Shown piece after piece: positions 6,114-36,044 of a stretch of 36,686 nucleotides of DNA. Numbering within the stretch: position 1 is the first letter of the stretch; each line of letters begins with the position of its first letter. The notes beneath the pieces are model-generated. The model had not been told where the DNA came from. It was given only the letters and a program-made list of their open reading frames with translations, and ran no database searches. This stretch comes from a virus: the IMG/VR virus record IMGVR_UViG_3300033143_002801, positions 1-36,686 of that record, one strand, 5' to 3'. The translations under genes and the position numbers were made by a program.

Positions 6114-8534
6114 ATGGCATCATTTACCAGACAACAATTAATAGATAGAAAAGCATTACAAGATCAATGACTTGATAACAAAGCAATTGATACACAAGTG
6201 CCAGCAACTACACCTGCTATACAAGAGCCAGTATCACCTACTCCTCCAGCTCCTTGAGTTCCTACAAGAACAGAGATTCAAGCAGCACGTGAAGCACACA
6301 GGTTAAATATACCTTTAACTTCAGATACACCAGTTCCTTGAATAGCCCTACCTCCAACTCCAGCACCTATAGTAGCTGCTGCACCAGCACCAGCTCTTGT
6401 AAAAGAAGTCAAAGAAGAAGTAACAGTTGTTGCTCCTAAGACAGCTGATGAAATATTCACTGCTAAGGTTTCTTGAGAAAAGATAGACTTTACTTGAGCT
6501 GCTGGACAAACTGCAAAGAAAAGATTTCTTACAGCTAAAGCTAGTCAGTTCTCTGATGCTACACAACTTGCTAAAGACTTTAAAGCTTGATTACTTACTG
6601 AACAAAACATTAGAGATATTGAAGCGTTCAATCCTGAGGCTGTAGCAGCTTTTAAAACACTTAAGGCTGACCAAGACAAGTTAAGCTCAATAAACAAAGA
6701 GGGAGCAGATGAAGACCTTGTAGCTACTACTGACGATACTATTAAATGATTTGAACAGAAGTTTAAAGACCTATCTAAATGACAAGAAGAACTATTACTT
6801 AAAAAGAAAGAGTTATTATGAACTCCTGAGATTAAAGCTTCTAAATTAGTAGTAAATGAATCTGTAGATAAATTAAATAGTGTTAGACTTAAACAACAAC
6901 AATTAGAAGATAATATTAGAGATCAATTCTCTGGTAAAGCTACTGAATGATTTATAAATGCTAAGATTAGAAAAGAAGGAAGACTTCTAAGGCAAGAAGA
7001 ACAAGAACTACTTAATGAAGTAACATTCGAACAAAGTAATCTTAAAGTATTACTAGACTCTGCTGAAACTGAGTTTGATGACTTAGTTAATATAGCTGCA
7101 TTAGAAGCTAAAACACTGGCTTGAGAGTTTGATAGAGCTATTAAATTAGAAGATAGAGATATTGCACAACAATCAAGAGAACAAGCTAAATACACAACTT
7201 TATTATCTACTTGATGACTAGATTGATTATCTAGTGAAGAACTTATAGAAATGGATATTAAATCGTGATTTCCAGAATGAACTTGAGAAAAGATTAGAGC
7301 ATTAGCAATTACTGATAGAGTTAGATGAACTAAACTAGCAGATTTAGAACTTCAAACAGCACAAAATGAAGTGAATAAATTGTTAGATCAAAAAACATCT
7401 AAAGACTTTGATGAGGCAGTTGATACAGTAAGAAACCCTTGAGATTTTATTAGGTCTAAAGAATGATTTAGATCACAAGCATACGATGATGCAACGTGAC
7501 TTACATTAAAACCTTGAGAAATACCTAAGGGAACTGCTACTATTTGATACTGATTTACACAAATTGGAGAAAACCCAGTACAAGCTTGAGATTCAATTAC
7601 TCAACAAGCAGCTGATAAAGAGTTCGGTAAACAATTAAGAACTTATGAGAACTTTAAAGATAAAGTTACAATTACATTAACACCTACACAAGAAGAAGCA
7701 TTAAGAAGTTTTGAATATAATCTAGGTAGAAATATCTGGAAAGAATCTACTGCAAATAATGCTAGTGAGGTTATTAAACTTGTTAATCTTTGAAAGTTTA
7801 AAGAAGCTTGAAACTATATGAAATTATTCAATAGAGCTTGATGAAAAGTTGTTAAATGATTACAAAATAGAAGAAATGATGAAGCTCAATTATTAATGGT
7901 TACATGAGATAGAGAATGAACTCAATCTAGTTTCCAAAGATTTAAAGAACAAGCAATAGAAGATTGACTAGACTGAGAAGCAGCAATTAAATTTGCAGAG
8001 AAAAGATATGAAGATACATTTAGTAAATTAACTTGAGAACAAGGTAAGTCATTTAATGCCTATACTATAATGCAAAAGGAAAATGAACTATTTGATAGTT
8101 TAGTGTCTTGAGAAGCGGATACAGAAGATTTTGCTAATGCAATCAATTTTATTTCTACACAGATTAAAGATGAAACTTCACCTTTGACTGCTGAAATAGT
8201 TAATAGAGCTACTTCTAATCCAACAACAAGAAGAGCAATAATGAGTGAGATGAGATGGTTAGAATGAGTACTTAGAGAAGAATCTTGAGCAGCAATTAGT
8301 ATTTGAGAATACCTAACAAAATGAAGATCTAATTTCCCAAGAGCTTGAGATGACTCTTGAGCTATATCTGATAAAGAAAGAGCTAGAAAAGATGCTACTA
8401 TAGGTAAATTCGTTAAAATGTGACCTTCAGGACAAAGACAATGGGAAGAAGCATTTTGAGAAGACAAAAGATCAATTGTAAGCAAATGAAAATATACAAA
8501 TGCCACTAAAGGTAGATGGCAACAAACTAACTAA
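6114..8534 (+). CDS. large virion protein with internal lysozyme (GH24) domain
   Basis: Encodes 806 residues. Residues 1-110 are Pro/Ala-rich and probably flexible; 110-440 are helical and charged. Residues about 440-600 form a T4-type lysozyme domain: SKEGFRSQAYDD carries the catalytic Glu450 and Asp459, ATIGYG carries Thr476, and GLQNRRNDEAQLL matches the family's C-terminal GL-x-x-RR-x-x-E motif. The remaining 200 residues are helical. This architecture fits a virion protein that cuts peptidoglycan during DNA entry, comparable in role to T7 gp16, though the enzyme class differs. The glycine of the catalytic E-G-F and both GYG glycines are TGA. It is a different protein from the minus-strand lysozyme at 19542-20290. 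Confidence 0.82.
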
Positions 8535-19541: not shown

Positions 19542-20290
19542 TTAAAGTTTATATAATGTTACTTCTGCATTTCTTCTTTTGACTAGTCATCATAGCTTTT
19601 TACCTCAAGCATAGACTGTTTTATTCATAAGATAAACAACAGATTTGTGATCTCAACGAGCTGCGTACTTTAACACATTTCCTCATCAAGTGTTGTAAAT
19701 ATAGCTTACAAGGCTTGCTTTCTGATTATCTGTTAGGTTTAAATCCTTAACCCTATCATATCTAGCCCTTACTGCCTCTGTGAGACGTTTTTCTGCCTCT
19801 TGGGCTGTGATAGTCTCTCAGGCGAAACTCTTCGTCCCATATCCAATACTGTATTGTTTGTAATCTGGATAAGCTTTTAAGTGTAATCACTCGAAAGACT
19901 TAATAAGATTTGTAGCCTCTTTTAGAGCTGGCTGATTCTCAATTACTTTCCCAACCCAATGTTCTTATTAGCTTCTAGAATCGAATCTAACTGCTGTTTG
20001 TCAATTCTAATAAAGTTCTCTAAAGTGTCATATCTGGCACTATTTCAAAAGATATTAACTTGAACATCTTGTAGTTCTTGCTGAGCTACATCAAATGCTT
20101 GTTGTCTTGTAGGTAAGATTGCTCTTAATCCTTTGTTAGCTTCTCTTAAGTCTGACTGGATTTCTCTAGCTTCTACAATCCTGTTTTTTAAGATTGTTTC
20201 TGGTGAAGTTAAGTGTTGATAAGCCATTACTCCTCAAACTGTTGTAGCAAATAGTACTACTGCCGATAATATTTTAGTTGTTGTTTTCAT
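19542..20290 (-). CDS. secreted lysozyme made by -1 frameshift (fusion product)
   Basis: The joined product is 249 residues: 115 read in the ATG frame, then 134 in the -1 frame. Residues 1-23 are a signal peptide or signal anchor (MKTTTKILSAVVLFATTVGG then VMA); residues 25-115 are a helical coiled-coil-like stalk. The rest is a lysozyme of the T4/SAR family: catalytic Glu134 in KSFEG, Asp143 in AYPD nine residues later, SIGYG (Ser where Thr is usual), NTGGGNV and GGLVKRRNAE. The lysozyme frame has no start codon before its catalytic Glu; upstream it is closed by TAA just six bases before the overlap. Frameshift fusion is therefore the simplest reading. A natural split gene or an assembly indel is the alternative. 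Confidence 0.72.
19943..20290 (-). CDS. zero-frame product: secreted coiled-coil protein
   Basis: Without frameshifting, translation stops at TAA (19943-19945) after 115 residues, releasing the signal sequence and helical stalk without the lysozyme. In a frameshift model this is the more abundant form and could regulate, inhibit or tether the enzyme. The chain is Gln/Glu/Ala-rich from residue 40. Confidence 0.6.
19946..19952 (-). promoter_or_regulatory. slippery heptamer G GGA AAG for -1 frameshifting
   Basis: On the minus strand the ATG frame reads TTG GGA AAG TAA. The heptamer fits X XXY YYZ in the correct phase and is the same one used by the lambda tail G-GT frameshift. The stop codon directly follows. 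A bulged six-pair hairpin lies 16 bases downstream (plus 19914-19929), somewhat far for a classic stimulator. Confidence 0.72.
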
Positions 20291-20300
20291 AGTTTTGTTT

Positions 20301-20432
20301 TTATTTGTTTTTAGATTTAACTTTTGCTAACCAAGATTTTCAGTCGTATTCAACTTCTATTTCTGGTAATTCTACCCGAAATGTTTTTTCTTTCGGTGCA
20401 GTTTTTAAAGTAACTGTTTCTTCTTTTTTCAT
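20301..20432 (-). CDS. small charged protein
   Basis: Encodes 43 residues, alternating Lys and Glu with a Tyr-Asp-Gly-Lys-Ser-Trp centre. It sits between the lysozyme and a membrane peptide. Function unknown. Confidence 0.5.
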
Positions 20433-20438
20433 AGTGTT

Positions 20439-20543
20439 TTATTTAATTATTAAATTTAATGTAGAGCCTTGTTCAGGTATTTCTACTAATACTGCTAGTA
20501 ATAGTATCAAGCCGATGATGATTAAGTAGTCTTTTACTTTCAT
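20439..20543 (-). CDS. 34-residue membrane peptide
   Basis: MKVKDYLIIIGLILLLAVLV then a short polar tail. A single N-in membrane helix. It starts inside the 3' end of the upstream gene (10-base overlap), so translation is probably coupled. Near the secreted lysozyme, a holin-like accessory role is possible but unproven. Confidence 0.5.
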   Translation of the reverse strand: MKVKDYLIIIGLILLLAVLVEIPEQGSTLNLIIK

Positions 20544-20839
20544 AGTTTAAAGTTAAGTTTTCTAATTTGTCATTCCATCTTCTCTATCTTAATATTAGCG
20601 TCTGTAAGTTCTTGATCTGTTTCAAACATTCAATCTCTAAGTCTTTTAACTAGAGCTTTATAATCTTCAATATCTGCGTCTTTCTCTATACATACTTCCT
20701 TTTCTCCTAAGTTAATGCTGTAAATTATACCTGCTACTCAAACTGCTAAAAGTAAGAAGTATCAAATCATTGTATATTGTAGTAGTACTCAAGCTCATAG
20801 TAGAGCTGAGAAGCCGATAAATAGTGTTAAGTGTTTCAT
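20534..20839 (-). CDS. membrane protein with coiled-coil tail
   Basis: Encodes 101 residues. Two hydrophobic helices occupy about residues 4-22 and 24-42, followed by a charged coiled-coil region (CIEKDADIEDYKALVKRLRD onward). This resembles Rz-type inner-membrane spanins or small holin-like proteins. It is next to the signal-peptide lysozyme, so a second lysis-related cluster is plausible. Several membrane glycines are TGA. Confidence 0.55.
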
Positions 20840-32937: not shown

Positions 32938-32961
32938 ATAAATACCAACTAACTTAATAAT

Positions 32962-33093
32962 ATGAAAGATACAATATGAAACAGTTTTATAACTTGAGGA
33001 AATAATATAATGGACTGGTTTTCAGATATTACTATTGTAATCACTTGATATCAATGGAACTTTACTTGAGGAGGAGATTTAATTTGGGCTTAA
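32962..33093 (+). CDS. 43-residue small protein
   Basis: Trp/Gly/Ile-rich (MDWFSDITIVITGYQWNFTG), with most glycines as TGA. Function unknown. A shorter start at the internal ATG (33010) would give 27 residues. Confidence 0.45.
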
Positions 33094-33111
33094 TTAACTA
33101 ACTTAAACAAT

Positions 33112-33348
33112 ATGTCATACAATATAGAAACAAATACTTACAATAGAGAAACGCTAAAAGACTTACTAGTTGAAATGTCTTGTAGAGCAGACACTAGATG
33201 AGAACTAATGTGTCAATTAAGCACACTAACTAGAAAGCTAAATGAGAACGAAAAAGAGTTTTGCAATGCTCAAATGCTAGCTAATGAAAGAAAGGCTAAG
33301 TGAGAAACTGCTGAGTGGGAAGGGGCAGAAATCAAATTAACTAACTAA
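33112..33348 (+). CDS. helical protein, 78 residues
   Basis: Charged helix with two cysteines, probably coiled coil (LSTLTRKLNENEKEFCNAQM). Function unknown. Confidence 0.55.
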
Positions 33349-33355
33349 ATATACT

Positions 33356-33688
33356 ATGAACAAAGAACTATACATAGAATTTCTAGAAGAAAGAGTTGAA
33401 CTACTTGAAGAAGAAGTTTATGATCTAGAATGTGAGTTAGATGAACAATCAGACCTACAATATCTTTATAATGAATTAGAAGATGTAGATTGTAATAATA
33501 AACAATGATGGATTGTATTTGATTCAGATGAAGAGAGAGAGAACTATTTATTAAATAAAGATCTTGATGAATACTATGAAAAACATAAATCTACAGAAGA
33601 AGAATGTATCTGATTCAACAACTGATGTATGTGTGACTGATGTTACGATGAAAGAATGGCACTATACGAAGAAGAAATAAATAACTAA
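33356..33688 (+). CDS. acidic protein with cysteine motif
   Basis: Encodes 110 residues, extremely Glu/Asp-rich, coiled coil for the first 45 and a CIGFNNGCMCDGCYDE metal-like motif near the end. May mimic DNA or bind metal. Function unknown. Confidence 0.58.
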
Positions 33689-34219: not shown

Positions 34220-34633
34220 ATGGCTAAATGAAAAGCAACAAGTTCGGCAGATAAAGCTAAAGTAATTAAAGAGTTAGTTACTAATCCAGATGCTAGTCTA
34301 AGAGATGTTGAAAGAACTACTTGAGTACATAACAGTACAGTAAGACTTATCAAACAGAACGATGCTCCAGAAATAGCAGAGAAAAGCCAAATAGTAGCTG
34401 ATATTGTAAGTATGGATAAAGAGATTATACATATTGCAAATGAGCTTAGTTTAAGCAAGTTTAAGCATCTTGACTTCAATGAGCTTAAGTTAAATGATAT
34501 TAAGATTGTAAGTGAAATAGCTGATAAGAGTACAAAGAGAGTTGCAACTTTTTGATGAGACATTACAGATAAAGATTGATGACTAAAGCAGCAAGATGTT
34601 GTATTCCAAATTATAAATCCAAATGGACAATAA
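34220..34633 (+). CDS. terminase small subunit candidate
   Basis: Encodes 137 residues. Residues 18-50 contain a helix-turn-helix (DASLRDVERTTGVHNSTVRL), then a long helix and the segment TFGGDITDKDGGLK near the C-terminus, as often seen in small terminases. It overlaps the large terminase start by 11 bases. It would recognise the packaging site and activate the large subunit. Confidence 0.72.
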
Positions 34634-36044
34634 AAGAATTATAGAAGTTAAACCTAGTAAGAAACAATTTGAGGCATTGCAATTATTACTAAATGATAAT
34701 TGAATGTCTTTTTTATGATATGGTTGAGCAGCTTGATGATGAAAGACAATATTAGCAGCTTTATGGATTTCAATGATGTGTAAGAAATATCCTTGAGTTA
34801 AATACTGAGTGTTTCGTAGATACATTACAGATGCTCTTGATACAACCTTTCACTCGTTTACTAAAGCTTTAATTATGCTTTGATTAACTGAAGCTCCTAG
34901 TATAGATGTGTTACATAAAAGATGCCACGAATTTGATTATGTGATAAGAAACTGATGAAAGGAGATAGTTTTTAGTAATTGAAGTGAGATTATTTTTAGA
35001 TGACTTCAGGATAAGCCAACCGATGTGCATTTTACTAAGATTTGATGACTTGAGCTTACTTGAGCTTATATTGATGAAGCAAATGAGTGTCCAGAAATGT
35101 GAGTAGCAGTATTAAAGAAAAGAGTTTGAAGGCATTTAAATTCTGAGTACAAAATACCACGTAAAGTTTTATGTACATTTAATCCAGATAAATGATGGGT
35201 ATATAGAACCTTCTATTTACCATTCAAGAATAAAGTAGAAACTAAAGACACTTTATTTATACCAGCTCTGCCAACTGATAACCCTTATTTAACAGAAGAA
35301 TACTTAGATGAACTTAAAAATGAAGAGAATGAAGTATTAAGACAGAGATATTACTTTTGAAACTTTGATTATGATGACACTCCTTGAAGATTATTTGAAT
35401 ATGATAAAATATTAGATCTATTAACAAATCCTAAATATAACTGAACTAAGTATATTTCTTGTGATGTAGCTAGAAAGTGAAAAGATAAGGCTATTATAAG
35501 TGTTTGGGATTGATATGAAGAAGTAGATAGAGCAGTATTTGAAAAGTGTCTTAATGTAGACATTGAGAACAAAATAAGAGAGTTTGCACATAAGTACAAT
35601 GTGTGAATGAGTAATACAATTGTTGATGAAGATTGAGTTTGAGGGTGAATTGTAGATAATCTTAGATGTAAATGATTCATAAATAACTCTAGTGCAATAC
35701 AACCCTTTACTTCCAAATATGATAGCACACAAAAGGTGAACTATTCTAATCTTAAAACTCAATGTTATTATGAATTATCTAAACTTGTTAATTTAAATAA
35801 GCTTAGAGTATTAGATCAAGACTTTAGCCTTCTTACTGAAGAGCTTGATGTAATAGTAGAGGCTGATATTAATAAAGACTCCAAAAAGAAGATAATAAGC
35901 AAGGATCAAATAAAAGAAAAGTTATGAAGAAGTCCTGATTATTCTGACACGCTAATGATGAGATGTTATTTTGAAATAAACAAATCTAGTATTAGTGAAG
36001 ATTCAGAAGAAGTAGTGACTATAGACTTCTCAGACTTTGTGTAG
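34623..36044 (+). CDS. terminase large subunit
   Basis: Encodes 473 residues. ATPase: Walker A GYGGAAGGGKT (about residues 32-42, three consecutive glycines written TGA TGA TGA) and Walker B LTGAYIDEANE with the catalytic Glu. Nuclease: YISCDVARKGKDKAI, then NTIVDEDGVGGGIVDNL and the Asp-rich end (SPDYSDTLMM) supply the acidic residues of the RNase H-like domain. It cuts and pumps phage DNA into proheads. Length is normal. It ends in TAG, 57 bases before the portal start. Confidence 0.93.

Follow-up and report, generated by a model that had tools for sequence, protein, structure and literature searches.

We analyzed a single metagenomic record, IMGVR_UViG_3300033143_002801, at positions 1 to 36,686 (hereafter the window). 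On its minus strand, an ORF of 115 codons (the 0 frame, 19943–20290) begins with the ATG at 20290 and ends in ATT GGG TTG GGA AAG TAA, in which the slippery heptamer G_GGA_AAG (19946–19952), read in the X_XXY_YYZ phase, is directly followed by the TAA stop (19943–19945). The −1 frame of the same strand is open from 19964 to 19545 and, from the shift site to its own TAA at 19544–19542, codes for a lysozyme (19542–19952). The original prediction had the two frames joining at G GGA AAG followed by TAA, and both the coordinates and the −1 phase are confirmed from the sequence. It had also described the lysozyme as lacking a start codon of its own, and indeed there is no ATG, GTG or TTG in the window's −1 frame until codon 96, far beyond the catalytic residues; an ATT at 19943 is the sole near-start ahead of the lysozyme domain. 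No other ATG-less frame of the window codes for a recognizable protein.

Both the 0-frame ORF, which contains two in-frame TGA codons, and the −1 lysozyme frame are closed under the standard code and open only when TGA is read as sense. Across the window, frames of at least 100 codons number 13 under table 11 versus 64 with TGA as sense (code 4 or 25). TGA stands at conserved glycine positions, for example in the FEG of the lysozyme, and makes up 550 of the 739 glycine codons. Judged from its sequence, the window phage is one of code 25 (TGA = Gly), the code of Gracilibacteria and Absconditabacteria, which is also known from their phages (PMC10746230). The original prediction had the layout of the split gene right but left the glycine reading of TGA in this genome unmentioned. 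tRNAs with the anticodon TCA, labeled SeC by ARAGORN, occur in the bacterial genome that holds the G113 contig described below (L188, L190, L192 and L204); they are consistent with UGA decoding as glycine.

The assignment of the −1 frame to the GH24 lysozymes is solid. The phage lysozyme domain (PF00959) covers residues 15–127 of its product P0002 (19563–19901, minus strand) and scores 72.9 bits against a cut-off of 22.3 (E = 3.8×10−20), and solved GH24 lysozymes are matched by sequence (phmmer, 2×10−11) and by fold (Foldseek, E = 2.5×10−07), the best fold matches all being GH24-type lysozymes or muramidases. The catalytic positions E18, D27 and S32 (Ser replacing Thr) are invariant across the aligned relatives, and the AlphaFold model has a mean pLDDT of 81 with a helix from residue 5. 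The window holds a second GH24 domain (PF00959, E = 2.4×10−24) at 6114–8534 on the plus strand, within an 806-aa protein that lies amid structural genes and is probably a virion-borne lysozyme.

The 0-frame ORF has at its N-terminus an export signal or anchor, ILSAVVLFATTVGGVMA; by hydropathy, residues 1–23 (20222–20290, minus strand) form a signal peptide or signal anchor, with a possible signal peptidase site, placed by eye, after VMA. A charged, Gly- and Pro-poor, coiled-coil-like segment follows. No spanin profile matched this ORF, and a search of viral contigs with the ORF alone returned no relatives. Three further ORFs lie upstream on the minus strand. The first two, read from the sequence and pointing in the same direction as the split gene, are a small ORF of 43 aa directly upstream (20301–20432) and one for a 34-aa single-TM peptide (20439–20543). 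The third codes for a 101-aa protein, hydrophobic in its N-terminal half and charged at its tail (20534–20839), which has no Pfam match and no useful PHROG match and is, by position only, a possible holin-like partner. SD-like cores (AGGA, GGAG or GAGG) precede 0 of 43 genes in the window, 0 of 37 in the related phage G001, 1 of 45 in G359 and 1 of 31 in G113:C45, no more than in a control stretch, which suggests that translation initiation in these recoded phages does not depend on SD pairing.

Of the 80 GH24 relatives that the search of viral contigs retained, a single one scored as a recoded genome, L073, which is the same record as G359 (IMGVR_UViG_3300001200_000024); the others use the standard code and are uninformative here. 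A capsid-based search likewise yielded chiefly standard-code contigs, and no recoded FEG...KAY motif turned up in a pattern search. G359 shares 37% identity with the window in the portal, 36% in the capsid and 46% in the GH24 domain, and by these comparisons is a distant relative within the window's phage lineage. Its export-signal coiled-coil ORF ends in GCA AAG TAG, the reading of GH24 goes on in the −1 frame, and AAAGTARTTGA at the junction is common to both phages. The G359 slip site consists of the A_AAG tetramer only (A_GCA_AAG), the full heptamer being absent. Two ATGs precede GH24 in its −1 frame, and the codon homologous to the ATT of the window is GTT, which is not a start. The second split gene is in a phage-like contig, G113:C45, of a Gracilibacteria-class genome, where a TM coiled-coil ORF ends in GAG GGT TTG AAT TAG, placing G_GGT_TTG one codon ahead of the TAG, and the −1 frame then encodes an M23+GH24 protein. 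A TTG lies upstream of the slip site in that −1 frame. The −1 product of G113 is 40% identical over 298 aa (2×10−57) to a protein of G360 in which TM, M23 and GH24 are all in one frame, and the conservation between the two starts about 25 residues ahead of the first ATG in the G113 −1 frame. G079 and G026 also carry TM, a linker or coil, and M23 in one frame. Thus the heptamer and the −1 layout, whose conservation the original prediction had proposed to compare among relatives, fared differently: the layout recurs in G359 and G113, but the heptamer is reduced to A_AAG in the former and is G_GGT_TTG in the latter. Relatives with one uninterrupted frame, which had been expected to speak against frameshifting, do exist (G360, G079 and G026), yet the gene is split in G359 and G113 as well.

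G001, the nearest relative by terminase (77–82%), has no detectable GH24 and is therefore uninformative on the conservation of the split. Its large terminase (L003/L009) is 82% identical to that of the window (34623–36044), whereas other shared proteins are at about 30%, a contrast suggesting that the terminase gene was exchanged recently. We rejected as incidental a G_GGT_TTA close to a stop of G001, which opens just ~10 codons of the −1 frame, and we rejected other overlapping −1 frames in recoded phages as antisense shadows or as having their own ATG. Within G359, a gene at 32938–33594 is followed by TAA and then by a gapless, ATG-less, coding-like stretch in the same frame, which would represent readthrough, a split gene or an error. 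Two Gracilibacteria-class genomes (L023 and L024) also encode long single-frame proteins with coiled coil, M23 and GH24, which resemble the endolysin of the G113 phage in architecture and are possibly cellular.

Across the 9,468 codons of the window, a G_GGN heptamer occurs in phase only once and there abuts the 0-frame stop, which speaks against a chance match. In four recoded phages, G_GGA_AAx or G_GGT_TTx occurs in phase five times in ~35,000 codons (window, one, at the junction; G113, two, one of them at the junction; G001 and G359, one each), and two of the five are thus at endolysin junctions. Because glycine is mainly encoded by TGA, the GGA at the slip site is itself unusual. We also counted slip motifs, defined as a heptamer at most one codon from the stop or A_AAG at the stop, in 276 genes of eight recoded phages or contigs and found 21, at 3 of 3 split endolysins versus 18 of 273 other genes (P = 4×10−4, Fisher's exact test), a value that is only indicative because the motif class is partly post hoc, A_AAG having been added after G359 was seen. 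The heptamer rates in the window and G113 carry more weight.

Programmed −1 ribosomal frameshifting is the best explanation for this endolysin of a code 25 phage and a probable one, judging from the sequence comparisons. Most ribosomes would read the signal and coiled-coil ORF and stop at TAA, giving an exported coil protein of 115 residues, and a minority would move back one base on G_GGA_AAG, while the stop codon is in the A site or close to it, and read on in the GH24 frame. The slip product would be a fused exported endolysin of ~249 residues (signal, coil and lysozyme), and slip efficiency would fix the ratio of the coil to the coil-lysozyme product; the two might form a mixed oligomer, a logic comparable to that of lambda gpG/gpGT. 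Slipping and its efficiency, export and oligomerization are in this sense all predicted steps. Ribosomal slippage is favored by the three splits, the missing start codon in the window, the conservation ahead of the ATG in G113 and the fused forms elsewhere. The signal-like export segment sits in the 0 frame and would be on the lysozyme polypeptide only if the frameshift fusion is made.

As for the sites themselves, G_GGA_AAG belongs to the highly shift-prone sequences in E. coli, and IS1222 makes natural use of an A_AAG site (PMC5009743). In the one host-class genome examined, that of G113, tRNA-Lys(CTT) and tRNA-Lys(TTT) are both present, and a dedicated tRNA-Lys(CUU) should make slipping on A_AAG weaker. 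G_GGT_TTG is not known as a classic strong bacterial slip site. If such hosts lack RF2, UAA would be left to RF1 alone, which might favor a slip with the stop in the A site. Downstream of the three split genes there is no strong or consistent stimulatory RNA structure (z = −1.96, 0.27 and −1.27); the window has a weak hairpin (AGCC...GGCU; 19914–19933, minus strand) 12 nt after the heptamer, whose role as a stimulator is doubtful, with folding z-scores of −1.96 over 80 nt and −0.42 over 120 nt. A stimulatory structure or SD-like element is dispensable in some known cases of frameshifting. Programmed shifting as originally proposed is strengthened by the −1 split recurring at the homologous position of G359 and also in G113, each stop having a slippery motif, and weakened by the incomplete heptamer of G359, the single-frame relatives and the lack of a strong stimulator.

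The main and serious rival is that there are two separate genes, one for a lysis protein (spanin-like or of another kind) with a membrane anchor and a coiled coil, and one for a cytosolic lysozyme with weak independent initiation. In the window the lysozyme would start by reinitiation on TAAUU with AUU, in G359 at an ATG 38 nt past the stop, and in G113 at the TTG. The TAATT of the window is one base from TAATG, a coupled start seen at 10 of 333 genes of these phages, and the ATGs of G359 and the TTG of G113 are candidate starts. The lysozyme domain is also complete without the upstream part in the AlphaFold model, the first ORF of G359 shows a weak match to Rz-like spanins (E = 2.8×10−4), and a holin-like gene, identified by eye, is close by in G113 (L044, 10244–10723). 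However, AUU is rare as a start, and because none of the 43 genes of the window has an SD-like core, a non-AUG start would have little help. The homologous GTT of G359 offers no start, the conservation in G113 reaches upstream of its first ATG, and in G360, G079 and G026 a single frame holds both the export segment and the hydrolase. Two genes would also leave the slippery motifs at all three stops unexplained, and we consider this arrangement unlikely, though still a real competitor to frameshifting.

A single-frame signal-coil-lysozyme gene might instead have been broken by the loss of one base in the G/A run, either as an assembly or sequencing error or as a real inactivating indel. Such a single frame would be in keeping with the export segment and hydrolase of G360, G079 and G026, and the window sequence comes from one metagenomic record. 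However, the same split in the same phase and at nearly the same junction is found independently in G359, and in G113 with another heptamer. Because the split recurs in these two and two of the five rare heptamers are at the junctions, an assembly error is unlikely; the catalytic positions and the rest of the lysozyme frame are intact, and errors do not typically fall in runs of only three bases, which together make a broken gene improbable. Slippage of RNA polymerase during transcription would also yield both products, but G3A3 is much shorter than the usual slippage runs and there is no long run in G359 or G113, so that this origin of the fusion is very improbable.

We tentatively extend programmed frameshifting to phages of UGA-recoded Gracilibacteria-type hosts, as a proposal that could well prove wrong: in cells expected to lack RF2, a stop-adjacent −1 slip may set the ratio of exported coil to coil-lysozyme and hence the timing of lysis. 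If true, lysis control would be tied both to translation and to an altered genetic code, and recurrently so in phages of hosts that have given up one stop codon. Gene callers would miss such endolysins twice, through the wrong code and the missing start codon. Programmed frameshifting in tailed phages is known chiefly from tail-assembly genes. Frameshifting itself and GH24 endolysins are both well known, and a frameshift-made endolysin is without precedent in the open-access papers searched, a coverage that most subscription journals fall outside; the papers matching both frameshift and endolysin deal with tail genes or, where checked, only cite such work.

Several known systems share parts of this arrangement. 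Lambda gpG/gpGT and its homologues in tailed phages have the same G_GGA_AAG, the same −1 direction, and a short product in excess over a longer fusion; unlike there, the gene here is for a lysis enzyme, the 0-frame stop directly follows the site, and a GH24 lysozyme makes up the second part. Transposase frameshifts of the IS3 family and IS1222 belong to the same class of sites (X_XXA_AAG, A_AAG), the A_AAG of G359 resembling the G_CGA_AAG of IS1222 (PMC5009743), whereas the present product is an endolysin and has no clear stimulatory structure. Variants of dnaX have a 0-frame stop adjoining the shift site and make the long product by frameshifting (PMC5009743), but dnaX is a cellular polymerase gene. 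Ms6 lysA also gives two products from one lysis gene, in that case by internal initiation in the same frame and not by frameshifting (PMC3111421). Finally, the signal-peptide or SAR endolysins P1 Lyz and R21 of phage 21, which are structural neighbors of the window lysozyme, are GH24 lysozymes exported by means of an N-terminal segment; in them this export segment is in the lysozyme frame, whereas in the window it lies in the other frame and is followed by a coiled coil.
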